DNA from: Ariolimax columbianus
Lineage: Eukaryota > Mollusca > Gastropoda > Stylommatophora > Arionidae
Direction: 5' to 3'
Length of the DNA: 64,000 nucleotides
Assembly: GCA_036924085.1 (NCBI GenBank)
Contig: JAVGWX010000003.1
Location: forward strand, 129,618,023 to 129,682,022
Below, piece after piece: positions 2,830 to 62,880 of the stretch. The translations under genes and the position numbers were made by a program. A model generated the notes under the pieces. It made no database searches, was not told the DNA's origin, and worked only from the letters and a program-made list of their open reading frames with translations. The stretch's first letter is position 1. Every line of letters begins with the position of its first letter.

Positions 2830-3545
2830 GGCATGTTTGGTTCTAACAAGTTTCAAGCGTCTCCTAGCATCATGGGAGGTGAGATCCGACAGCTTGTCAT
2901 TTCTGAAACGGTGGATGGACTATTTCAAAAGTGCACTCTGTAGGCATATATGAATCAATGGCTATTGTAAAATAGAAAATGGCACGCTGTTAGCCGCTGT
3001 CCTGCAAAAATCATTAGGAAAAATAATGAAATAATTAGCCAATACGTCACATAATTTCCCACAGACCTTGGAAACTGGAGAAAGTTAATCGCAAAATAGA
3101 ACATGCATCAAATACCTTCGGCTACCTGGCAGTAGACCTACATACACAAAGTAGTCTAAATTAATGAATATCTGAATTCATGTTAAGACAAAGCAGAGAC
3201 CGAATATCTGGTCACAAGAACTTCACAACGTTTAATCAATCCTCTTACACTTCATCCTGACCAGCAGTTCTTCTTGCCGTATCGATTTTATTATTTGTTC
3301 AATGGTAAAAGTACGTAGACCACTGACCTTATGGTAAATACGTCTAACCTGTTTTATGCACACTTACTGTACCCAGTACATCTCCCGCAGAGCGAGAATT
3401 TTCAGAGAATTCCCTGCATGCTGACATTTCCTAGAACGTCTCCCACCTATTTACAGTTCTTGTCAATTTTCTAGTCGGCAACAGTAAGTAGCTAAACTCA
3501 AACATGTTTACAACAGACAGTGTATTGTCGTCACAATAGCAGCGC
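2830..3545. other. Non-coding stretch, nothing recognised
   Basis: No open frame of note and no repeat structure; ordinary AT-rich intergenic or intronic sequence. Confidence 0.35.
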
Positions 3546-7479: not shown

Positions 7480-8750
7480 AAAAAACCCTTACCAGTCACT
7501 ACTAACTGGTCCAGTGATGATACATATATCTAGTCCAACAACTTCAAAACGGACTACCTTTTGCAATTAAGTACATGTATGCGTCATTCCATATATACTG
7601 AACACTTGTATTCATGCTGTGTGGAACACAAGAACCGATCGTCTTAATAGCGGCGACGTAATGTGCACCCATCACACGGAGAAGGTACTAATTTTAATCA
7701 CTGTTTTAGAGATGTTTCCAGTTAACTCAGTTGTAAATTTGTTCCTGTCTCACTTTCAGGTAAAGAAAGACAGAGAGGGAGGGAATTTGCGTATTTCCTT
7801 CTCATTAAAGCTGAGATTTAGTAGAATGACGCATCTACCACGCCTCCATCATTGACAGCAGTATCTCCGATGAGGCAACCTTCACCTTTACCAAGAACGA
7901 TGCAGTCAGTTAAAATTGGGCAATATATTATGTTTAAAAAACACAAATTCAAATGTCAAATTCCCAATTTCCACGTTGCACTATTAATAGGCGCACGTGA
8001 GAACACTTACAGCCACCCATCATCATACCACACCCCTACTTCCTCTGTATGAACAACCACTCAAAAACTGTACTACGTCTCTGCATGCAACCACGCCTGT
8101 CAACAATATGGACCACATTTCGATCGTATCATCAGCGATTGTGCACCCTAGCATACGGAAATATATATTCCAAACAAATAAGAGCAGACAATCTGTGAGA
8201 AAGCTAACAGTTTTTTGTAATTTCATAACAACGGGCTTTATGATGTTAGATAACAACTGCTTGTTAGATTTTGATACATCGTGGTGTGAAAACGCTTAAA
8301 TGTCTGTGTCTGCTAAGGTTCGCTTCAACATGCACCACTTGTATATGACATTAGAGAGAATGGTGCTTTAGAAGTCTTTAAAAAAACAGCTCCTGTTATA
8401 TGCTTGGGTTACAGCTATATATATAATTGTGTAAGGAATGATAATAAAATTGGGCATGAGGTCGGCGGTATCGTACAGCTTCTAAGCTAAAAGAGAAACA
8501 GAAAAAAAACTTGCCCCAAGGTAGAAGGGGACTACTTTGTCCAGTCAAGTCAAGTCATATAATAATATTAAAGAAATTAACGATCAAATGCAATTTTAAA
8601 GTATAGAAACTAATTGAGTTTTTATTAATGGATTAGTTTATTGTAATTATTATTTCGTGGCATAGTAATAGTAACAACATATTACAAGAGCATGTGGAAA
8701 AACAATGAAGATGTTGTTATAAATATGTATACACAACAATCAGAATACAT
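7480..8750. other. Non-coding stretch, nothing recognised
   Basis: Several short frames (7619-7855, 7852-8052, 7997-8299) overlap on both strands and show no family signature. No repeat array and no SINE head supported. Confidence 0.35.
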
Positions 8751-8753
8751 ACT

Positions 8754-8860
8754 ATTTGACTCAACACGGCCAAACACTGAAATGATTGACAGGCCGAGAG
8801 CACTTTCGCTGGGTCAAATATGGAACGGTTGCTGGAATTAGACCCGCGAAAATCTGGGGC
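8754..8860 (+). pseudogene. rRNA-derived chimeric unit 1: 18S piece fused to 28S piece
   Basis: The left part reads like 18S rRNA (GACTCAACACGG, then a decayed GGAATGATTGACAGACTGAGAGCACTTTC-type region). At the GGGTC near 8810 it passes into sequence like the 28S 3' domain (TAATAGTGAACG-type and TTAGACCCG). In a normal rDNA unit these regions are kilobases apart and belong to different subunits. Decay is strong. The sense strand is plus. It is the first of three units with the same junction. Confidence 0.7.
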
Positions 8861-8895
8861 TATGCTCTCGGTTGCTTGACTCTCTCGCATCCAGT

Positions 8896-9127
8896 GTTTG
8901 ATAAAAGGAATTGACGGAAGGGCACCGCCAGGAGTGGAGCCTGAGGCTTAATTTGACTCGACACGCCAATACTGTAGAATGACTGACAAATTGAGGGCAC
9001 TTTCGTTGGGTCTAATAGTGAACATGTGCTGGTATTAGACCCACGGAAGACAGGTCAGTTGTACCATCCTAATGAAAGAGCGTCTGCTACGGTAACCCTG
9101 CTTAACCCTACAGAAATTGCAGGTTCC
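8896..9127 (+). pseudogene. rRNA-derived chimeric unit 2: 18S piece fused to 28S piece
   Basis: It opens with the near-universal 18S stretch AAAGGAATTGACGG, AAGGGCACCGCCAGGAGTGG, AGCCTGAGGCTTAATTTGAC and TCGACACG, then ATTGACAAATTGAGGGCACTTTC. At 9005-9010 it switches to 28S (CTAATAGTGAAC, ATTAGACCC, GGAAGACAGGTCAGTT, CTACGGTAACCCTGCT). The 18S block is well preserved; the 28S block is decayed after GCTTAACCC. The junction matches units 1 and 3. Confidence 0.85.
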
Positions 9128-9660
9128 AGAATCTTGGTCATTGACTGACTAAAAAGCCCTCTATTGACTCGTTGGGTCTAATAGTGAACGGGTGCTGGTA
9201 TTAGACCCTCGGAAGACAGGTCAGTTTTAACCTACTAAAGACAGGGCGTTGCTACGGTAGTCCTGCTCAACTCGAGAGGAATCGCAAATCGCAGACATTT
9301 GGTCCACGTGTTAGGCTGATAAGCCAACGGCGCGGAGGCTACCATAGGAGGGATTACGGCCGAACGCCTCTAAGCCGGAATCCCGCCCTAAATCTCAGCA
9401 CCACTGCGATGGGAGGCTACGATAGGGTTGGGACCTGGGGCTCGTGTCCCTGCCCGACCCGGTCGAGCCGCAGAAAGAGGTCCCTGCCGTCCGCCGATCA
9501 AAGCGGGCGGGAAGCTGCCCAATATTCACCCCATACGGCGATGAGGTGTGAAACCACTAGTAGAAGACTTAGTTCTCGGCCGGGGTGTCGTAAGCAGAAG
9601 AGCAGCCACCTCACTTCGAACTGCATAGACAAAACCCCTTGATCATGAGATATGTCCGCA
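9128..9660 (+). pseudogene. rRNA-derived unit 3: 18S remnant plus 28S rRNA 3' end
   Basis: A short, very decayed 18S remnant (ATTGACTGACTAAAAAGCCCTC) meets the same junction at about 9170. It is followed by about 490 bp of 28S rRNA to the molecule's 3' end. Landmarks in order are CTAATAGTGAACGGG, GACAGGTCAGTTTTAACC, TGCTCAACTCGAGAGGAA, ACATTTGGTCCACGTG, GAAC­GCCTCTAAGCC-type sequence, AATCCCGCC and a closing GTCGTAAGCAGAAGAGCAGC, CCTTGATCATGAGATATGTC. Many substitutions at conserved positions mark it as a pseudogene. The frame at 9409-9642 is a by-product. Confidence 0.85.
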
Positions 9661-9716
9661 CACCACGCGAACAACATATCCGTGCTTTTACCAGGCCTGT
9701 CCCCTGGTTAAATGCA

Positions 9717-9935
9717 CTCCTTCGAGAGGAATCGCAGGTCGCTGACATTTGGTCCACGTGCTTGGCTGACAAGCCAATGGTGTGAAGCTACCACCTGAGG
9801 GACTACAGCCGAACGCCTCTAAGCCCGAATCCCGCCCTAAATCTCAGCACCGCTGTGATGGGAGGCCACGATATGGTTGGGACCTGGGGCTCGCGTCTCA
9901 GCCCGGCCCGGTCCAGCCACAGAAATGCACCTGGC
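9717..9935 (+). pseudogene. 28S rRNA 3' fragment, extra copy
   Basis: A second copy of the 28S segment starts at CTTCGAGAGGAATCGCAGG and runs through ACATTTGGTCCACGTGC, TTGGCTGACAAGCCAATGG, CGAACGCCTCTAAGC and AATCCCGCCCTAAATCTC, ending near CCAGCCACAGAAA. It is slightly closer to canonical 28S than the copy at 9.2-9.6 kb in this region. Its surroundings to 10.3 kb are not recognised. Overlapping plus-strand frames (9782-10102, 9855-10040) come from the rRNA sequence. Confidence 0.85.
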
Positions 9936-10309
9936 CAAATACATTCCTGTCTCGCTCTTTACCTATGTCTGCTATCAGCCATCCCAATGGACGCAGAAGA
10001 GATGCAGTCCAGCGGACATTGCACCTCTGCCCTATTGTGACAACGTCCCAGGTGGCGGGGAATGCTAAGCGTGTCATCACTGCAGATGAGCCGAGAACAT
10101 AAAGGGAGCAAAGAGATACCTCACTCACATGCATATGCTACGTTTCTGGCAGGACGTGACGATCCTGAGACACAGTCATACTGGACTGCCTCTCTTCCGG
10201 GATAGTACAAACTAGTACATAGTCCATCATATCATTGCCAAACTCTATAGACACGAGAGGGGAAGACTCGATAGTCCTGCAAGACAACTTCCCTAAGAGA
10301 GACAACTCT

Positions 10310-10486
10310 GACCAAAAATAGCTGCTGCCTTGCAGAAAGGCTGGGGACAGTCAAAGTCTAAGGAGGGCATCCCTACAGAAACGCCTGTTGAAATCGGATG
10401 CACTGAGCCACAGGCTTAACAAAAAAAAACAGTGCAACGTAAATATCGCTGTAAACAGCGTACGATGAAGAAGAAGAAGAAGAATA
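10310..10486 (+). mobile_element. SINE type C (core plus I-LINE-like 3' end)
   Basis: The segment contains the core shared by the SINEs of this window (TGAAATCGGATGCACTGAGCC, then CAGGCTTAAC), a CAGTGCAACG word also in type A, and the terminus CAGCGTACGATG followed by (AAG)n. That terminus matches the 3' end of the I-like LINE at 28.0-29.9 kb (CTGCGTACGATGAAGAAG). I infer the SINE is mobilised by that LINE. The 5' boundary is uncertain; no tRNA head is visible, so it may be truncated. Confidence 0.7.
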
Positions 10487-10489
10487 CAT

Positions 10490-11050
10490 ACTGCAACTCT
10501 GGAGGGTATATTGACTGATAAGAACTTAATCACGCTAAAAGCAACCTCACAAATTTCAAAGAAATTATTTTTTGTTTCATGTCTTTACGTGCAAACTTGC
10601 GTAAACGTCTTCTTATTGTTAGAAAACGATATAATCATTTTTAATTTAAGAGCTTGGCTGATACAATTCATTGTTCATGCTGGTAAGTTCTAACGTTGAT
10701 ACAATGCATCATAAACAGTTGAGTACACAGCTATATGTTTTCTGCTGTTGGCAGATTTCACAATTGATATGGTCATATAAGCTAAATGGAAATGCTGTTC
10801 AAACAATATTTCAGGGTAGAATGCCGAGAATTGGCTGCATGATCCAATGTAGCTAATGGATTACATTTAATAATGCATATCCCCATTTACTAGATATCTT
10901 GGATTAAAATAAAACACAGCCTAAATGAAGTTTTACACAAAGACAGCAACATAGGTTTGCATAACGTATGAGATTACTGACTCTATATGTCCTTTTGTAA
11001 AACTGTATTTTGAAATCGCTTTAGTTTTTTGTGTTTTACTTTATTCAGCC
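10490..11050. other. Non-coding stretch, nothing recognised
   Basis: Two short frames (10511-10693, 10671-10856) without recognisable features; no repeats. Confidence 0.35.
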
Positions 11051-11280: not shown

Positions 11281-11752
11281 TTAAAATATTTTAGGGATTC
11301 TCGCCCACAAGATGATATGTCGCAAAAAAGAGATTGTCCGTCTCTAATATCAGGTTATGGTTAAGTGGTTAGGGAAGCGACATAGAAGATTAACAAACAT
11401 TTTTGGTTGGATGACAATGATCACAATCCTTTTAGGCCATCTGATGTTGATTTTTGACCATTTTGGTTTTCTGATGTTGATTATGACAGGCTGCGGGTCT
11501 ACCTTGCTCTAATCTACGCTTCCACTACCACCAGCCCTACAAGTAGGCGATCGTATATTCAATGGACTATTAACCTAACAGGGGGTAAAACATAATGGGA
11601 TTTACCTGGCAAGTCACCAGCGGATTTTCGTCTGCTAAACATATGGAAGAAAGGAGGTTAACCCCCTGCCCCCCTACTCTACTGTCTTACTACACAAGTG
11701 GACTGAAGATAGCCAGATAACCACACATATGTTATATATCATATACGTGAAC

Positions 11753-11990
11753 AAGGGGACGGCGTGGCCTAGTGGATAAGTGGCACGGCTCACAATCCGA
11801 AGGTGCTGGGTTCGATCCCCATCACAGCACCGGCCGTTACCCCGGGGAAGCAAACCCTTAGAAAATGCAGGAGGAAGCAGACCCTTACATAAAATGCATG
11901 CTGAAGTCGGATGCATTGGGCCGACAGGCGCAAAAATAAAAACCACAGTGCAACGCACACCGCCTTGGGGATTAGAGAAATAAGGCGAAC

Positions 11991-12020
<30 letters not shown>
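11753..12020 (+). mobile_element. Full-length tRNA-derived SINE type A with target duplication
   Basis: The element is bounded by the 12 bp duplication ATATACGTGAAC (11741-11752 and 12021-12032). It starts with a tRNA-like head (A box TGGCCTAGTGGATAAG, B box GGGTTCGATCCCC). A body with CCCCGGGGAAGC, the shared core GCTGAAGTCGGATGCATTGG, GCCGACAGGCGC and CCGCCTTGGGGATTAGAG follows, and it ends in a poly-A tract of about 27. It is an intact-looking retroposon that depends on LINE enzymes in trans. The frames 11674-12171 minus and 11780-11983 plus are by-products. Confidence 0.92.
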
Positions 12021-22720: not shown

Positions 22721-22869
22721 TTCTTTCTATCTCTCTCTTACACCAACAATCAGTTGATCTCAGATAGCATTTTTCTTTACACTGAAACAATTGATTGTTA
22801 TCATATATCAGCATTTCTGTCGCTCAAACAATCATATGCTATCTTTATTTCCCTCTATCTCAAACATTT

Positions 22870-23935
22870 GTATGCTTCAAATGTCGGTATCCTAATTACT
22901 GACTCAAACAATCATTTTCTCTCAAATGTCAGTACCATTCTTACTGACTTAAACAATCATTTGCTCTCAAATGTCAGTATCCTTCTTACTGACTCAAACA
23001 ATCATTTTCTCTCAAATGTCGGTATCCCTCCTTTTCAGTAAAACAATAATTTGCTTTCAAATGTCGTTACCTTTCCCTCTCTCTCAAACATGTGTATGCT
23101 CTCAAATGTCAGTATCCTTCTTACTGACTCAAACAATCATTTGCTCTCAAATGTCAGTACCATTCTTACTGACTTAAACAATCATTTGCTCTCAAATGTC
23201 AGTATCCTTCTTTCTGACTCAAACAATCATTTGCTCTCAAATGTCAGTATCCTTCTTACTGGCTCAAACAATCATTTGCTCTCAAATGTCAGTATCCTTC
23301 TTACTGACTCAAACAATCATTTGCTCTCAAATGTCAGTATCCTTCTTACTGACTCAAACAATCATTTGCTCTCAAATATCAGTATCCTTCTTACTGACTC
23401 AAACAATCATTTTCTCTAAAATGTCAGTATCCTTCTTACTGACTCAAACAATCATTTGCTCTCAAATGTCAGTATCCTTCTTACTGACTCAAACAATCAT
23501 TTGCTCTCAAATGTCAGTATCCTTCTTACTGACTCAAACAATCATTTGCTCTCAAATGGCAGTATCCTTCTTACTGACTCAAACAATCATTTGCTCTCAA
23601 ATGTCAGTATCCTTCTTACTGACTCAAACAATCATTTGCTCTCAAATGTCAGTATCCTTCTTACTGACTCAAACAATCATTTGCTCTCAAATGTCAGTGT
23701 CCTTCTTACTGACTCAAACAATCATGTGCTCTCAAATGTCAGTATCCTTCTTACTGACTCAAACAATCATATGCTCTCAAATGTCAGTATCCTTCTTACT
23801 GACTCAAACAATCATTTGCTCTCAAATGTCAGTATCCTTCTTACTGACTCAAACAATCATGTGCTCTCAAATGTCAGTATCCTTCTTACTGACTCAAACA
23901 ATCATATGCTCTCAAATGTCGATATCCTTTCCTCT
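22870..23935 (+). repeat. Minisatellite, 45 bp unit, about 22 copies
   Basis: A measured period of 45 bp. Each unit holds TCAAACAATCATTTGCTCTC, AAATGTCAGTATCC and TTCTTACTGAC; the core copies from 23100 to 23900 are nearly identical. As 45 is a multiple of three and the unit has no stop in two plus frames, long frames appear (23196-23996, 266 codons, 15-residue repeat; 23456-24040). They have no start context, no non-repeat domain and the same satellite base pattern, so I treat them as non-genic. The array grades into the 19 bp array on its left, which shares CTCTCAAATG. Confidence 0.95.
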
Positions 23936-24347
23936 CATGCAAACAATCGTTTTTTTCTCAAAAGTCATTCCCTTTCACACTTTAAAACTCAATTGATCTC
24001 ATATATTACTATCTGTTCCTCAAACGTTAACAATTATTGACTTTTCAATGTCATTGTCATTCATTGTCCCTCAAATAGTCATGTATTCTCAAATGCCATT
24101 CTCCTTCACACTTTAACAATTACATGCTATAAAATATCATTATATTTCTCTAGAACTCCATTAATGAAATGTCATTCCCCATCCTACTCAGACTACCAAT
24201 CAATGACTATTGTTCCCAATGACTATAGTTCCAGCAAATTTTCATATTTAGACAAAGGAAGCATGAACGTGGGGATTTGATCTTGAATCAGACGACCATT
24301 ATGTACGAAGACTGCTGACCAACCATATGCTGTCTAAATAAAAACTC

Positions 24348-24910
24348 GAAGCAGGCCACCAGAGAAGGTTGTGATGGGTTTGCTCGACACAGGTGCCCTG
24401 GAAAGGTTGTGATGGGTTTGCTCAACACAGGCGTCCAGGGAAGGTTGAGATGGGTTTGCTCGACACAGGCGACCAGTGAAGGTTGTGATGGGTTTGCTCG
24501 ACACAGGCGACCAGATAAGGTTGTGATGGGTTTGCTCGACACAGGCGACCAGGGAAGGTTGTGATGGGTTTGCTCGACACAGGCGACCAGGGAAGGTTGA
24601 GATGGGTTTGCACGACACAGGCGACCAGTGAAGGTTGTGATGGGTTTGCTCGACACAGGCGTCCAGGGAAGGTTGAGATGGGTTTGCTCGACACAGGCGA
24701 CCAGTGAAGGTTGTGATGGGTTTGCTCGACACAGACGGCCAGATAAGGTTGTGATGGGTTTGCTCGACACAGGTGACCAGGGAAGGTTGTGATGGGTTTG
24801 CTCGACACAGGCGACCAGGGAAGGTTGTGATGGGTTTGCTCGACACAGGCGACCAGATAAGGTTGTGATGGGTTTGCTCGACACAGGCGACCAGATAATG
24901 TTGTGATGGG
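24348..24910 (+). repeat. Minisatellite, 38 bp unit, about 15 copies
   Basis: A measured period of 38 bp (GGTTGTGATGG recurs at 24367 and 24405). The unit contains GGTTGTGATGGGTTTGCTCG, ACACAGGCGACCAG and a GGGAA/ATAA/TGAA variant end. 38 is not a multiple of three, so each minus frame cycles through all phases; all three stay open for 128-214 codons only because the unit lacks minus-strand stops. Confidence 0.95.
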
Positions 24911-24964
24911 ATTGGCAACCTCAGAAACGACAAATTCATAATCAGTGGAACCATACTACAAACA

Positions 24965-27889: not shown

Positions 27890-28046
27890 AAAGATATTCT
27901 TTGTCTTCGGCGTTCGTTCTCAAACTCCCGCTACCAAGTCATAAAAAGGGCTTTGCAAGTAGCAGGATGTAGTCCGGAGAATGGGATGCGCCGTGTCGTA
28001 GTTTACAACTTGACTTCTATATGTGCACCTTTGGTCCGACACATTC
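27890..28046 (-). mobile_element. SINE type B, truncated copy, target of a LINE
   Basis: In reverse this matches the 3' half of type B at 38.2-38.4 kb and 34.9-35.05 kb: GTCGGACC, AAAGGTGCA, TTGTAAACTACGACAC, CATCCTGCTACTTGC-like and GGGAGTTTGAGAACGAACG. Its core-proximal end is the 14 bp GGTCCGACACATTC, which was duplicated when the LINE inserted. Past the LINE no further SINE sequence is recognised, so the copy was already truncated there. Confidence 0.8.
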
Positions 28047-29911
28047 GTACACGTGGATCAACCACTACCTCAAAAAAAGAACGGCGAGAGTCCAAGTACA
28101 AGGGCAGATAAGCAAAAAGGTGACACTCGAGCAGGGAGTACCCCAAGAGGGAGTACTGCCACCTACACTCTTCCTGGTGTATATAAACGACACTACAGAG
28201 AATATACCAAGAAGAGTCCATAGCTCAATGTTTGCAGACGATCTGGCTATGTTGACCTCTGAAAAGAATCTCACCATAGCAAGAAATCGGATGCAGCAGG
28301 CCCTAACATCGCTGGAAGAGTTGGCTAACTCATGGCTGGTCAAAATAAACGAGGAGAAAACCACATGTACAAAATTCTTGCTCTCATTAAAACCCCAAAG
28401 TACCAAATTAAGTCTAAATGGCAAAATCCTTCAGCCAAACGACAACCCAACCGATCTGGGAGTCACATTTGATCGGCGCATGACATGGAAAAGTCAGATC
28501 GAGAGAAACCGAATGAGAGCCAGAGAAAGAATGGCAATCATGAGGAAACGTGCTGGCACAAGCTGGGGAGCAGACGAAAGTATACTAAAGAAACTGTACA
28601 CTGGAAGAGTGAGACCAGTTCTCGAGTATGGCATTGCGGCATGGACAACAGCAGCAAAGGCGAACTTCGATAAAGTTAGCAAACTTCAAAACCAAGCCAT
28701 GAGAGTTATAACAGGAGGCATGAAGTCAACGCCAATTGTAGAACTTGAAAAGATTACAAAACTGCAATCCATGACCGATAGAAGAGACTGCAGAGCCCAG
28801 CTGCAGTCAGAGAAACTCCGAAGACTGACTGACCATCCAATGCACCAGAGACTAAACAATTTGGGAAATGGGAAACTAAAGCGGAGAAACTTTGCAGAAA
28901 TAGCCAAAGCAAAGATGCACGAAGATCCCATAACCGCACTAACAACACCAAAGTCCATCACTACTGTACGAAAACGTACCTGGAGGCAGGATATATTTCC
29001 AGAGGTGGTAGAAAATATACCAGGTATTGGAAACAAAAACTGCCAGACTGAAAAAGAAAAGAGAGATACTACCCTAAGCTTTATATCGAAAAACTACCCA
29101 AGCATGGACTGGACCCATGCATACACCGACGGTTCTGTAACAAACACTACACATAACGGAGGGGCAGGAGCATTCCTGAACCTACCAAATGGCAGAAAAA
29201 TAACACTGTCATTCTCTACTAGTAAGTACACAAGCAATTTCAGAGCGGAGGCAGAAGCACTGAGGGCGGCAGTGGAAGAAATGGTGACACATAGAGAAAA
29301 TGAAAGCATACAGTCCTGCTTACAGATGCTCTCGCCGTAGTCACAGCTCTAAAAAGCCAGAAAAACACTGAGCTTAATGACTTAAGAGCAGAACTCTGTC
29401 AACTATGCCAGCAGTCCGCACCAAAAAGGTAGGGGTACAGTGGGTCCCATCACACTGCAACATCCAAGGCAACGAGGAGGCAGACAGACTGGCAAAAGAA
29501 GGTGCAAGACTACCACAAACAGATACCAGTATGACGTACGAAGAGTCAAAACGGCTTATCAAAGCCAGATACATGACCAAATGGGAAACTGAACATACCG
29601 GCTACACCAAAAACGATGCCTATTACCAGTTGAACAGAAGAGAGAAGGTCGTTGTCTTCAGACTTCGCACTGGCCACAATAGACTGAGGTACCACCTATT
29701 CAACAAATTGAAGATAGGTGGTACCGACGAATGCCCGTGTGGTACCGAGAAAATGACCGCTGAGCATCTGCTGCAGAACTACCCGACATACGAGGATCAG
29801 AGAGAGCAGATGTGGCGATCACCAGTAGAACCACAAGACAAGCTCTATGGCAGTGTCGATAGCCTCAGGATGACCGCCGCTTTTTTCGAAAAAATAATGG
29901 TTACTGTCTGA
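28047..29911 (+). pseudogene. Reverse transcriptase-RNase H polyprotein, broken by two frameshifts
   Basis: RT palm features: GVPQEGVLPPTLF (the usual GVPQGGVLSPTLF with changes), MFADDLAML with the catalytic aspartates, then a thumb-like region with LKKLYTGRVRPVLEYGIAAW. RNase H follows: AYTDGSV (first Asp), RAEAEALRAAVEEM (Glu), LTDALAVV (Asp) and WVPSHCNIQGNEEADRLAK (His and last Asp), so all acidic residues are present. The C-terminal tail has CPCG, then AEHLLQNYPTY, where a Tyr replaces the Cys of the copy at 52.6 kb. Frame changes occur near 29310 and near 29425 (an A5 run); otherwise the frame is open for 439 codons, implying recent insertion. The first ATG of the frame lies in SINE sequence upstream of the LINE and is not a native start. 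Confidence 0.9.
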
Positions 29912-29943
29912 CTGCGTACGATGAAGAAGAAGAAGAAGAAGAA
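28047..29943 (+). mobile_element. 5'-truncated I-like LINE with RT and RNase H, 14 bp target duplication
   Basis: The element is framed by exact GGTCCGACACATTC copies at 28033-28046 and 29944-29957. It holds the C-terminal part of reverse transcriptase, an RNase H domain and a Cys/His-rich tail, then a short 3' untranslated part ending CTGCGTACGATG plus (AAG)n. The missing 5' half (ORF1, endonuclease, RT fingers) fits incomplete target-primed reverse transcription. Presence of RNase H and the GAA tail point to the I group (I, Nimb or Ingi-like). It sits in a minus-strand SINE type B, and two shorter relatives occur at 49.7 and 52.6 kb. Confidence 0.93.
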
Positions 29944-30433: not shown

Positions 30434-30604
30434 AATGTCCCCGGGGAAGCCAACCCTTAGAAAAATGCAGGAGGAAGCAGACCCTTACATAAAATGCATG
30501 CTGAAGTCGGATGCACTGGGCCGACAGGCGCAAAATAAAAACGCAGTGCAATGCACACCGCCTTGGGGATTAGAGAAATAAGGCGAACACCAAAAAAAAA
30601 AAAA
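30434..30604 (+). mobile_element. SINE type A, copy lacking the tRNA head
   Basis: Matches the body of the full copy at 11.84-12.02 kb almost base for base: CCCCGGGGAAGCC, AGGAGGAAGCAGACCC, GCTGAAGTCGGATGCACTGG, GCCGACAGGCGC and CCGCCTTGGGGATTAGAG, ending in an A tract. The tRNA-derived 5' part is missing, so it could not be transcribed from its own promoter. Frames on both strands (30366-30581) are by-products. Confidence 0.92.
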
Positions 30605-41289: not shown

Positions 41290-41588
41290 TATATAGGTAG
41301 GTTGTCTTGACGTGACATTAGATAGTTTATCTAGTTATGATATAATTACATAAGCTGTCCAGGCGTGACGTCATTCGATAGTTGGTCTAGATGTGGCGTC
41401 AATAGATAGTTTGTCTAATATGCAGTACCATTAACATGTTGTATGTCTAGATCTGACATTATACATTTAGTCTAAGCTTAACATAAACAGATAGTGTGTC
41501 TAGTTGTAAAATTATATATTTATTCTACGTGTGACATAAACATATGGTGTGTCAACATGTGACATTAGATAGTTAGTCTACGTGTACA
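41290..41588 (+). repeat. Satellite array, left half (unit about 30-35 bp)
   Basis: Recurring words GTGTGACATTAGATAGTT, TTGTCTAG and TAACATAAACATATGG, diverged. The array resumes at 43188 after the LINE, so this is one array split by an insertion. Confidence 0.8.
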
Positions 41589-43187
41589 AACAAACCTGAG
41601 AAAATATTCCACTCAACACCAACAAATATAGAGGATAACCAACTGATAACGAAGGAAGAGGTAATTGCAGCGGTAAAGACATTGAGAAGAAGGAAGGCGG
41701 CCGGCGTGGACAATATACCAGCAGAGCTCTTACAAGCAGGTGGAGAGGTAGTGGTGGAATTCCTGACACACATCTGTAACAAAATATGGGCGACAGGAAA
41801 CTGGCCGGACTTATGGACGAAATTAATAGTTATACCGTTACATAAGTCTGGAAACCTAAAGATGTTCCACAATTACAGAACAATAAGCCTCATTAGCCAC
41901 CCTAGCAAGGTCATGCTTAGATTAATCCTAGACCGATTGAAACCCCAAGCAGAGAACATTATTGCCGAGGAGCAATCAGGGTTCAGACAGGGAAGAAGCA
42001 CTACAGAACAGATATTTAATTTAAGGCTGCTAAGCGAGAAATATCTAGAACAGTAGCAAACACTGTATCATGTGTTTGTGGATTTTAAGAAGGCGTTTGA
42101 TAGGGTATGGCATAAAGCGCTTTGGGCAACCATGAGGATGTATAATATCAACGGAAATATTATGACGGTCCTTGAACACCTGTATAACAAGGCGTCTAGC
42201 GCAGTTCTTGTGAATGGGAGGCGAGGAGACTGGTTTCGCACATAAGTTGGTGTGAGACAGGGGTGTACACTCTCTCCAACTCTTTTCAATATATTCATTG
42301 AGGGAATAATGAGTGAGGCACTTGAAGGTCACGTTGGTACTGTCAAGATAGGGGACCGAACGATTACCAACCTTCGTTTTGCAGATGATATCGAATGGGT
42401 TGGCGGGTTCAGAAGCAGAACTCCAGGAATGGGTCAGAAGGCTCGATGAAACAGCTATTGACTATGGTATGGAGATAAACGCTGGAAAGACAAAATTAAT
42501 GACCAACAACGCTACGGGCTTCAACAACAAGATAAAAGCTAACGGTCAGGAACTCGAAGTGGTTGACCGTTTTAAATATCTAGGGTCGATTGTCAGTGAT
42601 GAAGGATCAACATGTGAGGTGTTGGCCAGAAAAGCACAGACAATAGCGGCGCTTGCACGGCTTAACAAAATATGGCAAGATAAACGGTTAGCACTAAGCA
42701 CGAAAATCAGATTAATGCATACACTGGTTCTGTCAATATTCCTCTATGCGTGTGAGACATGGACAGTTACAGCTGACCTTCAACGAAGGATACAGGCCTT
42801 GGAGATGAGATGTTTCCGAAAACTTTTAAACGCCACGTACAAAGATCGAGTTACAAACGAGGAAATACGAGATAGAATTACAAAAGCAATAGGGCCTTTC
42901 GAAGATCTCTTGGCAACTGTCAAAAGAAGGAAACTCACTTGGTACGGTCACATATCGAGATCAAGTGGTCTTGCAAACACAATCCTCCACGGGAAGGTGC
43001 ATGGCAGACGACGAAGAGGCCTCCCAAAAAGAGATAGGAGGACAACATAAAAGAATGGACCAGTCTCCGACCAGAAGAGTCACAGCCAGCGGCATCTGAC
43101 AGAGAGGGATGGCGTGGAGTTGTGAGGATGTCTTCATGTGTGCCCCAACGACCTCACGGTTACGGGATGACCTGACCTGACCTGACC
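41589..43187 (+). mobile_element. 5'-truncated LINE (RT only) inserted in a satellite array
   Basis: The RT reads through several frames: KAAGVDNIPAELLQAGGEV, NYRTISLISHPSKVMLRLIL, EEQSGFRQGRSTTEQIF, VDFKKAFDRVWH, VGVRQGCTLSPTLFNIF, LRFADDI (catalytic), KTKLMTNN, FKYLGSIVSDEGS, LYACETWTV, MRCFRKLLNATYKDRVTNEE and RRKLTWYGHISRSSG. Two in-frame stops (near 42055 and 42243) and frameshifts near 42400 and 43030 disable it. The 3' end is (CCTGA)n. CTACGTGTA on both sides may be the target duplication, although the array itself repeats this word. Endonuclease is absent. The family belongs to the APE-type LINEs; I do not assign a clade. Confidence 0.92.
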
Positions 43188-49734: not shown

Positions 49735-49957
49735 ATAAACTGAAGATAGGTGGTACTGACGAATGCACTTGTGGTACAGGGAAAATGACCGCTGAACGTC
49801 TGCTGCAAAATTGCCCGACATACGAGGACCAGAGAAAGCACATGTGGCCAACACTAGACAAGCTCTATGGCAGTGTCGACAGCCTCAGAATGACAGCTGC
49901 TTTCTTCGAACAAATTTAAGTTGACGTCTGACAGCGTACGAAGAAGAAGAAGAAGAA
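49735..49957 (+). mobile_element. I-like LINE 3' fragment, copy 2
   Basis: Matches the 3' end of the 28-29.9 kb element: AAACTGAAGATAGGTGGTAC, ECTCGTGKMTAERLLQNCPT in translation, GACAAGCTCTATGGCAGTGT, TCTGACAGCGTACG and (AAG)n. Flanks AATTTCTTATTAATA (left) and AATTGCTTATTATAC (right) look like a target duplication with substitutions. Only about 50 codons of protein remain. Confidence 0.88.
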
Positions 49958-60838: not shown

Positions 60839-62002
60839 AGGCCATTTGTAAGGCCATTTGTAAGACCATTTGTAAGGCCATTTGTAAGGCCAAGGCCATT
60901 TGTAAGGCCATTTGTAAGGCCATTTGTAAGGTCATTTGTAAGGCCATTTGTAAGGCCATTTGTAAGGCCATTTGTAAGGCCATTTGTAAGGCCATTTGTA
61001 AGGCCATTTGTAAGGCCAACGCCATTTGTAAGGCCAATTGTAGGGCCATTTGTAAGGCCATTTGTAAGGCCATTTGTAAGGCCAAGGCCATTTGTAAGGC
61101 CATTTGTAAGGCCAAGGCAATTTGTAAGGCCATTTGTAAGGCCAAGGCCATTTGTAAGGCCATTTGTAAGGCCATTTGTAAGGCCAAGGCCATTTGTAAG
61201 GCCATTTGTAAGGCCATTTGTAAGGCCATTTGTAAGGCCATTTGTAAGGCCATTTTTAAGGCCATTTGTAAGGCCAAGGCCATTTGTAAGGCCATTTGTA
61301 AGGCCATTTGTAAGGCCATTTCTAAGGCCAAGGCCATTTGTAAGGCCATTTGTAAGGCCATTTGTAAGGCCATTTGTAAGGCCATTTGTAAGGCCATTTG
61401 TAAGGCCATTTGTAAAGCCAAGGCCATTTGTAAGGCCATTTGTAAGGCCATTTGTAAGGCCATTTGTAAGGCCATTTGTAAGGCCATTTGTAAGGCCATT
61501 TTTATAAGGCCATTTGTAAGGCCATTTGTAAGGCCATTTGTAAGGCCATTTGTAAGGCCATTTGTAAGGCCATTTATAAGGCCATTTGTAAGGCCATTTG
61601 TAAGGCCATTTGTAAGGCCATTTGTAAGGCCATTTGTAAGGCCATTTGTAAGGCCATTTGTAAGGCCATTTGTAAGGCCATTTTTATAAGGCCATTTGTA
61701 AGGCCATTTGTAAGGCCATTTGTAAGGCCATTTGTAAGGCCATTTTTATAAGGCCATTTGTAAGGCCATTTGTAAGGCCATTTGTAAGGCCATTTGTAAG
61801 GCCATTTATAAGGCCATTAATAAGGCCATTTGTAAGGCCATTTGTAAGGCCATTTGTAAGGCCATTTGTAAGGCCATTTGTAAGACCATTTGTAAGGCCA
61901 TTTGTAAGGCCATTTATAAGGCCATTTGTAAGGCCATTTGTAAGGCCATTTGTAAGGCCATTTGTAAGGCCAGTTGTAAGGCCATTTGTAAGGCCATTTG
62001 TA
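60839..62002. repeat. 12 bp minisatellite within the LINE RT codons, about 97 units
   Basis: Unit GGCCATTTGTAA on plus, TTACAAATGGCC on minus, i.e. Leu-Gln-Met-Ala in the LINE frame. Variants include 18 bp units (extra AAGGCC) and 15-16 bp units (CATTTTTATAAGG) that shift phase near 61500, 61680 and 61745. The flanks on the minus strand are SLDAELQK before and STALASILQTA after, which are consecutive in the RT family, so the array expanded inside the coding sequence. Long frames on both strands (60784-61689, 60804-61499, 60830-61507) are repeats only. Confidence 0.97.
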
Positions 62003-62097
62003 ATGTCTTTTGTAGCTCTGCGTCCAGTGAGAAGTTGTCGGTGATGATAGATCCGAGGTAGTTACAATTTTTTATCACATTCAGATCCTGAGAGATG
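62003..62097 (-). mobile_element. LINE RT segment upstream of the minisatellite
   Basis: Minus strand reads VDISQDLNVIKNCNYLGSII and TDNFSLDAELQK. The segment continues directly into the minisatellite and then into 60838-60222. It ends at the inversion joint at about 62098. Confidence 0.88.
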
Positions 62098-62880
62098 TCA
62101 ACATATTCACTCTGTACAAAAAAGGGTAATAGGGGAGAGGTTCAACAACAATTACATTGGAATATCGTTCCTCATCATTTTAGGCAAAGTGTATGCTCGT
62201 GTCATCCTGAGCTAGCTGCGGAAGCTAGTCGATAGTGTGTATCCGAGGTCTCAGCGTGGTTTTCGCGTAGAGCGGTTCACCTTCGACATGGTCTTTTCAC
62301 TGATGTAACTGCAAGAGCAACGCAGAGAACAACAGAAACCCCTTTTTCTTGCCTTCTTCTACCTCACCAAGACATTCAACCTCGTAAATAAAGAGGGTCC
62401 ATTCAAAAAAGTGTAAAACATTGACTGCCCATCTAAACTATTGAGCATGGTTAGGTCTTTTAACGTGGGCACGAACGGTACAGTGCTGCACGACGGTCTT
62501 GAATCTGAGGCCTTTGGCATTAATAGCGGGGTCAAACAAGGTTGTGCCCTGGCTCCTACTCTTTTTTGCATTGTCTTTGCCATCGTGCTAAAACACCCTT
62601 TGGAACTGCTTTCTACAGAAGGAATCTTCCTGTATACTAAGTCAGATGGGTGTTTATTCAATCTGACCAGACTGCGTCCAAAAGTAAGAGAAGTGAGACT
62701 GTCGTTCGGGATATGGTCTTCGCAAACTGTGCAGCCCTGGTCGCCCACACGGTAGCCGAGTCACAAATCCTCATTAATAGCTTAGCGAAACCTGTGACTC
62801 ACCATCAGTTTACACAAGACGAAAGTGATGGCTCAGGGCACAGATCCTCCAGGCATTGTCTTAAGCGATATTTGTGATAC
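62098..62880 (+). mobile_element. Inverted 5' half of the same LINE copy
   Basis: Plus strand reads NIFTLYKK, NNYIGISFLIILGKVYARVI, VYPRSQRGF-type, FTFDMVFSL, FYLTKTFNLVNKEG-type, MVRSFNVGTNGTVLHDGL, FGINSGVKQGCALAPTLFCI, LYTKSDGCLFNLTRLRPKV, RDMVFANCAAL (catalytic FADD replaced by FANC), ILINSLAK and KVMAQGTDPPGIVLSDI. It stops where the minus-strand segment at 62097 begins in the protein order, so the two halves are consecutive parts of one element facing opposite ways. Frameshifts and the lost aspartates make it inactive. Confidence 0.9.

Follow-up and report, generated by a model that had tools for sequence, protein, structure and literature searches.

The element described here occupies positions 8754 to 10480 of the window, by which is meant the whole 64-kb stretch of DNA analysed, on contig C3 of the genome searched (2.29 Gb in 401 contigs). 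Its parts are listed in Table 1. The original prediction had delimited the feature as 8754 to 9935; the start stands, and the true extent is longer, with a perfect 12-bp target duplication on each side and a (GAA)n tail at the end. The + strand of the window contains the 12-mer AGAATACATACT exactly twice, once at 8742, adjoining the first 18S base, and once at 10481, where the tail ends; in a chance control 19 of 20000 random position pairs reached 12 nt or more. The tail resembles that of LINEs elsewhere in the window. The match to the LINE ends at 29911 and 49931 is 96% over 26-30 nt, about half of it GAA repeat, and the non-repeat part of this LINE-derived tail is short. The scores for the segment held in common with a tRNA-derived SINE compare with a shuffle maximum of 53 (500 shuffles) in each case.

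Table 1. Parts of the element and associated features. Positions are those of the window.
Feature	Position	Strand	Basis
Target-site duplication AGAATACATACT, 5' copy	8742..8753	.	exact 12-mer
Last nucleotides of fresh 18S segment ATTTGACTCAACAC; 5' truncation point of window copy	8754..8767	+	18S identity break at CTCAACACG/CCAACACTG in longer copies
Unit 1: diverged 18S (to ~8807), joint 8808-8814, then first 40 nt of 28S 3' domain	8768..8851	+	
Spacer between units 1 and 2	8852..8903	+	
Unit 2: 18S block (nt ~1137-1198, then diverged to GCACTTTC), joint 9007-9013, 28S 3' domain	8904..9157	+	Rfam SSU, 28S alignments
Unit 3: 28S 3' domain up to 28S terminus, without detectable 18S ahead	9170..9655	+	Rfam LSU
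Spacer between units 3 and 4	9656..9721	+	
Unit 4: 28S 3' domain only	9722..9925	+	LSU_rRNA_eukarya; 87% to unit 3
Unique segment of LINE-type 5' UTR	9926..10342	+	common to family; 84% to young LINE-bearing copies A and B
Segment also in body of tRNA-derived SINE (11753-12020; second copy near 30483)	10343..10439	+	alignment scores 85 and 81
LINE 3' tail (GCGTACGATG + GAA repeats)	10455..10480	+	match to LINE ends at 29911 and 49931
Target-site duplication AGAATACATACT, 3' copy	10481..10492	.	exact 12-mer
5'-truncated LINE with reverse transcriptase and RNase H, same tail type	28047..29943	+	Pfam RVT_1 and RNase_H

The window copy contains no protein frame with known relatives; searches with two of its open frames returned nothing at E 1 or better (2 and 33 candidates). 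The RNA fold of 9926-10475 had a z-score of -1.27. Matches to U7, snR67, SNORD58 and rydB in the window were below the gathering score and were taken as chance. Among viral contigs there were no matches for the joint described below, for two other element patterns or for an 18S string, and a 28S string found one contig, with a short 28S end.

Other repeats in the window

The LINE at 28047 has its own 14-nt target duplication, GGTCCGACACATTC, at 28033 and 29944. The RNase H frame of a LINE in the window has 22 protein relatives, the best organism-named one being from the snail Littorina saxatilis (51% identity), which makes the host probably a gastropod. Two more 3' ends of the LINE with the GAA tail lie at 49931 and 53021, and a LINE remnant frame at 41577-43050 matches RVT_1 over 41577-42056. 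A further remnant, at 62417-62755, has a frame recognised as reverse transcriptase-like by eye only. The tRNA-derived SINE has A and B boxes at 11765-11818 and its own 12-nt duplication, ATATACGTGAAC, at 11741 and 12021. An apparent 5'-truncated second copy lies at about 30438-30600, and the SINE body is common to the LINE 5' UTR. A tRNA scan of the window found none, though the tRNA-like head of the SINE is visible. There are minisatellites at 60839-62014 (period 12, 102 copies), 22859-23929 (period 45, 24 copies) and 24345-24914 (period 38, 15 copies).

The 18S-28S units

Three successive units had been predicted to pass from 18S into 28S sequence at one joint, and this holds for the first two. 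The 18S part of unit 1 (8754-8807) had a score against each of three eukaryotic 18S references that none of 300 shuffles reached, with no SSU match listed for it by Rfam. That of unit 2 (8904-9010) matched SSU_rRNA_eukarya at 57.7 bits (gathering score 50, E 3.5e-15), and 62 nt of it are 95% identical to two of the three references (whole-window E 9e-17). Taken alone, the diverged end of that unit (8966-9010) is weaker, with a score reached by 0, 3 and 79 of 300 shuffles against the three references. The 18S of units 1 and 2 was confirmed. Unit 3 fails the same test, as 8, 21 and 119 of 300 shuffles reached the score of the sequence ahead of its joint, and the description of three units with 18S was dropped. 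Unit 3 does possess the 28S side, and in common with the joint it has only TCGTTGGGTCTAATAGTGAAC.

The 28S 3' domain occurs four times, at 9014-9157, 9180-9655 and 9722-9925 and as approximately 40 nt in unit 1. Unit 3 matched LSU_rRNA_eukarya at 97.9 bits over 9243-9653 and, as predicted, extends to the 28S terminus, with model position 3401 at 9655 and an E value of 1.4e-06 for the end alone; a simple alignment of 9530-9660 with the 28S ends of two distant eukaryotes was not significant (21 and 458 of 500 shuffles). The fourth, 28S-only copy was also confirmed (55.1 bits, E 4.2e-12, at 9711-9842). For the spacer between units 1 and 2, every score against the 18S and 28S references was reached by at least 30 of 500 shuffles. 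The spacer between units 3 and 4, possibly a candidate 3' ETS, had no significant match to either of two 28S references, its scores being reached by 362 and 119 of 500 shuffles, and neither 9654-9721 nor 9926-10342 gave a score against 28S that fewer than 30 of 500 shuffles reached. A hairpin is predicted to span the joint in all three units (8806-8853, 9000-9051 and 9168-9217; -14.1, -22.2 and -15.4 kcal/mol), and inspection by eye shows one compensated pair when units 1 and 2 are compared.

Units 2 and 3 share 14 identical derived bases (2.1 expected) and units 3 and 4 share nine (0.7 expected), counted only in columns where two distant eukaryotic references and the Rfam consensus agree; these references are not molluscan, so that a few of the shared changes may be changes of the host lineage. 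The shared changes indicate that the units stem from one fused, already diverged ancestor.

Dispersal and target duplications

The joint had 5,267 matches in the genome with up to three mismatches, while the reversed control had none; this figure, like those given below for the start and promoter strings, counts matches and not elements. We found no point in support of an assembly artefact at the joint, and such an origin is very unlikely given thousands of dispersed matches and fetched copies with different flanks.

A first look in the host's own genome produced 7,224 candidates. Scoring 40 of these yielded 44 matches; apart from the match of the window itself, the main ones are 90-95% identical. 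Forty copies were compared, namely 39 fetched copies (L014-L052) and the window copy; the fetched ones were top-scoring and not random, so that long and young copies are over-represented. They lie on many chromosome-size contigs with differing flanks. All 39 stop at element position 1722-1727 and the 5' ends are variable, ranging in 24 copies from FL 1 to FL 2079. Direct repeats of at least 8 nt flank 20 of the 24 copies with both ends usable, and repeats of at least 11 nt flank 12 of them, whereas among 552 mismatched flank pairs the corresponding numbers were 22 and three. The remaining 16 of the 40 copies were not usable here, as the fetched stretch missed an end or the hit chain was broken. 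Individual duplications and a common 3' end with variable 5' truncation are the marks of LINE-type mobilisation by target-primed reverse transcription. The suggestion of an rRNA-derived retroposon was thereby borne out, as was the view that the fusion preceded amplification, since the dispersed copies have the same joint and a common GAA tail. The copies diverge from their majority by 1.8-5.5%, far less than the units diverge from each other, and the units are therefore older than the spread.

The 5' truncation points of the 24 copies recur at element positions of about 1843-1866, 1993-1997 and 2057-2058, which are homologous spots of the repeated units. Reverse transcriptase pauses, RNA cleavage or microhomology are candidate causes. 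Stops at helix h31 of 18S, which we take to be the site of a hypermodified nucleotide, were rejected because the ends at FL 2057-2058 are about 7 nt away. An older, separate family of short SINEs was likewise rejected, since no diagnostic column separates 16 long copies from 16 short ones, and so was a 10-nt deletion in the 18S as a founder mark, as it was present in one of 20 copies scored at the site.

The 5' end of full-length copies

The longest copy read (L053 joined to L026) is an element of 3,572 nt, in which the 18S begins at 18S nt 1 and is preceded by a GC-rich leader of 634 nt; two other copies have the same 5' end. SSU_rRNA_eukarya was matched at 882-969 bits, with the whole model covered, in six of the seven loci scanned, the seventh being a piece upstream of one of these. 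The reference for host rDNA was one unit of the same genome, read in part, with other parts reading N. Element positions 1-1869 aligned without a break to its ETS and 18S (92%), and by this alignment the leader is the host's own rDNA 5' ETS. Full-length members thus hold the 5' ETS and 18S nt 1 to about 1236 as the head, and the 28S 3' domain is internal.

The majority of the copies differs from the host's own 18S in three of 1,223 columns (99.75% identical), and from its ETS in 22 of 285 columns at FL 346-634 (at least 10 copies) and 52 of 326 columns at FL 1-345 (about three copies). Within the window's subfamily the ETS matches that of the host at 84-92%. At one site the host's 18S reads GGGAAAACTC, where a different variant string gave no matches. 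No intact 28S of the host was found, and much of the fetched rDNA coding region reads N. In the window family and in three copies described below (A, B and C) the identity with 18S stops at CTCAACACG/CCAACACTG, which places the boundary between the fresh 18S and the older block about 50 nt before the joint originally described.

At 25 columns where the majority differs from host rDNA the copies have the shared base in 355 of 392 cells, which indicates one shared lineage. This bears on the possibility that each copy is an independent template switch between LINE RNA and available pre-rRNA, with no heritable rRNA-headed lineage. Such switches could account for an element 18S that is as good as new, and a recent pre-rRNA copy, L057, shows that direct junctions between 18S and pre-rRNA do form. 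However, of 29 ETS columns of the same kind, L057 agrees with rDNA in 22 and with the element in six, and the shared bases, the derived changes common to units 2 and 3 and a joint found at thousands of places speak against independent events. We consider independent switching unlikely and favour a heritable lineage.

Further rRNA chimeras (L054, L055, L056, L060, L061 and L062) belong to related lineages with other junctions. They include 18S 3' ends that carry the beginning of ITS1 and lie near element units, and 28S pieces with large deletions.

Start of the element in host rDNA

In host rDNA the element begins at TATATT/ATCTGGGG, CCCCGGAATGTATATT directly preceding its first base. A start-only string, ATCTGGGRTAGTTGTCTCGC, had 4,900 matches (2,431 and 2,469; control 4), and a promoter-spanning string had 128 (90 and 38) with up to two mismatches (reversed control 0), so that the start string is 38 times as frequent. 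Among the promoter matches listed, three are on C10, C12 and C13; the others are on contigs such as C50, C67, C86 and C222, where many of them are spaced about 12.3 kb apart. The same first nucleotide was found in all eight starts examined (the first eight listed, all on C1 and without mismatch), with preceding flanks that do not match rDNA and 93.8-99.6% identity to the host's ETS-18S. In L057 an 18S end is joined directly to this same start. The common 5' end of the DNA copies and the TATATT preceding it in rDNA make the element start the probable Pol I start, and the DNA 5' ends suggest that the family may be transcribed by Pol I.

Three loci outside the rDNA contigs (L063-L065) have the promoter string together with 17 nt, 0.6 kb and 1.5 kb of diverged upstream rDNA similarity. 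They are candidates for promoter-bearing sources or orphan rDNA, so the simple picture may not hold for a few copies.

The tandem units and the 28S terminus resemble rDNA remnants, and the whole could be read as an ordinary degenerate pseudogene array or orphan rDNA that was never retroposed. The excess of the start string over the promoter-spanning string, the dispersal over many chromosome-size contigs, the individual target duplications and the single common GAA tail make this reading very improbable.

Copies continuing into a LINE frame

Three start-bearing copies (A, B and C) were followed downstream. C is a complete copy of the short form; it ends in a GAA tail and is flanked on each side by the duplication ATATTCAGGTTTC. 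A and B, which are 99.3% identical over 4,460 nt, reach an endonuclease stretch. Their ETS is 99.7% and 99.4% and their 18S 99.8% and 99.9% identical to the host's rDNA. The short form goes straight to the tail after AACGTAAAT, where A continues in a frame that stays open for 344 residues, as far as the DNA was fetched, and matches Exo_endo_phos_2 (E 4.2e-19) and 10 sequences of LINE endonucleases of solved structure (best E 7.9e-08). The 3' part of A differs by approximately 16-22% from that of the window family, yet its ETS is close to present rDNA, which indicates that the head tracks the rDNA of the host. Since an open endonuclease frame follows it in A, the best reading of the rRNA block is as a LINE 5' UTR; the window element would then be a non-autonomous derivative that has lost the coding part by internal deletion. 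The LINE sequence read in A and B ends before the expected reverse transcriptase, and so its identity with the LINEs of the window depends on the short tail.

The original prediction had thought of SINEs derived from 28S. The full-length members do not look like free-standing SINEs of that type, having a head of 5' ETS and 18S and, in two of the three followed, a LINE endonuclease frame. A related reading is a free-standing SINE with an 18S/28S head and a LINE tail, parasitic on a LINE, the LINE-bearing copies being chance chimeras. The very numerous joint, the body segment in common with a tRNA SINE and the lack of a recognisable protein frame in the window copy would suit such a SINE, and just two LINE-bearing copies, nearly identical, were seen. 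Against it, the same rRNA block, 18S breakpoint and 5' start lie directly upstream of the open APE frame in A and B, and the short form departs from them where they enter that frame. Nor was the pair of Pol III A and B boxes of a SINE found in the head. In the full-length copies no box pair was found, a strict B-box string occurring only inside the 18S (in A and C, not in FL) without an upstream A box. A scan of the window copy gave seven loose A matches and one loose B match but no strict B box. We think it improbable that the family is a free-standing SINE, and prefer the LINE derivative.

Discussion

The feature in the window quite probably belongs to a LINE-mobilised family whose RNA has host pre-rRNA at its head, and is a non-autonomous member truncated at the 5' end. 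The full-length RNA would start at the rDNA (Pol I) start and contain the 5' ETS and 18S nt 1 to about 1236, and would then enter the older, degenerate array of fused 18S-28S units, including the 28S terminus, as part of the LINE 5' UTR. After the array would come the unique segment, the segment shared with the SINE, and either the APE endonuclease frame, in members of the autonomous type, or directly the LINE GAA tail, in short members such as that of the window. The LINE enzyme would prime on the target at the tail and copy toward the 5' end, often stopping early, which would produce both target duplications and 5' truncation.

We infer that the LINE is autonomous and that functional rDNA supplies the ETS-18S head by one of two routes. 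In the first, source copies would lie inside 18S genes and be co-transcribed from the rDNA promoter by Pol I. A pattern in which the GAA tail is joined to downstream 18S had no matches in the genome, where the fetched rDNA coding stretches are largely N. In the second, the reverse transcriptase would jump from LINE RNA to pre-rRNA at a CAACAC microhomology. Both routes fit the pattern and are not separated by the present data.

A broader proposition, to which we give an even chance, is that this is a dispersed and recently active LINE family with the Pol I start of its host, its 5' UTR being pre-rRNA from +1 through the ETS to 18S nt ~1236, renewed from functional rDNA, with young members matching the current ETS as the rest diverges. 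LINEs need a promoter that travels with their RNA. If the proposition is true, here is a LINE with the promoter and leader of ribosomal RNA and thousands of start-bearing progeny, and the data suggest that a family of thousands borrows the most active transcription machinery of its host. Copies beginning at the pre-rRNA start would show pre-rRNA serving as a LINE leader on a massive scale, and the family bears on the ways in which rDNA-linked elements escape from rDNA. With it one could directly test whether Pol I transcripts feed retrotransposition and whether 18S sequence aids translation or ribosome association of LINE RNA, and see how template switching renews the 5' end of an element. On the practical side, 18S barcoding, rDNA copy counts and the filtering of rRNA reads in this group could be confounded by the many near-perfect 18S copies that lie outside rDNA.

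Comparison with known systems

No description of an 18S- or ETS-headed LINE was found among the titles and abstract openings listed by literature searches, which predated the ETS and LINE findings and did not use Pol I or ETS as terms. The rDNA-specific LINEs R1, R2, R7 and R8 insert at a fixed site inside rRNA genes. Like them, the present family would be co-transcribed with pre-rRNA by Pol I; unlike them, it has dispersed copies that carry the pre-rRNA head, and none was found in rDNA, the fetched coding stretches of which are largely N.

SINE28 of mammals and MeloSINE of the budgerigar have 28S 3'-end sequence in a LINE-mobilised chimeric element (PMC8010984, PMC7245038). The present family is also a LINE-mobilised chimera with 28S 3'-end sequence, but it differs in having 18S and the 5' ETS from the probable start, repeated 18S-28S fusion units, a full length of 3.6 kb and two members that continue into a LINE frame. 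Chimeric LINE-1 insertions with 28S rRNA, of which 18 are reported, contain mostly sense 28S pieces and are attributed there to template switching or RNA ligation (PMC13174262). They resemble our copies in having rRNA pieces joined to a LINE, mostly in sense orientation, whereas here, instead of 18 insertions, there is a family with thousands of matches in which joint and start are constant. Chimeras of 5S rRNA and tRNA SINEs such as HaSE3 have a head of Pol III 5S rRNA (PMC3272025). HaSE3 and the present family have in common a head of rRNA origin, a body common to another SINE and a LINE tail, and differ in that the head is Pol III 5S rRNA in HaSE3 and the Pol I precursor here.
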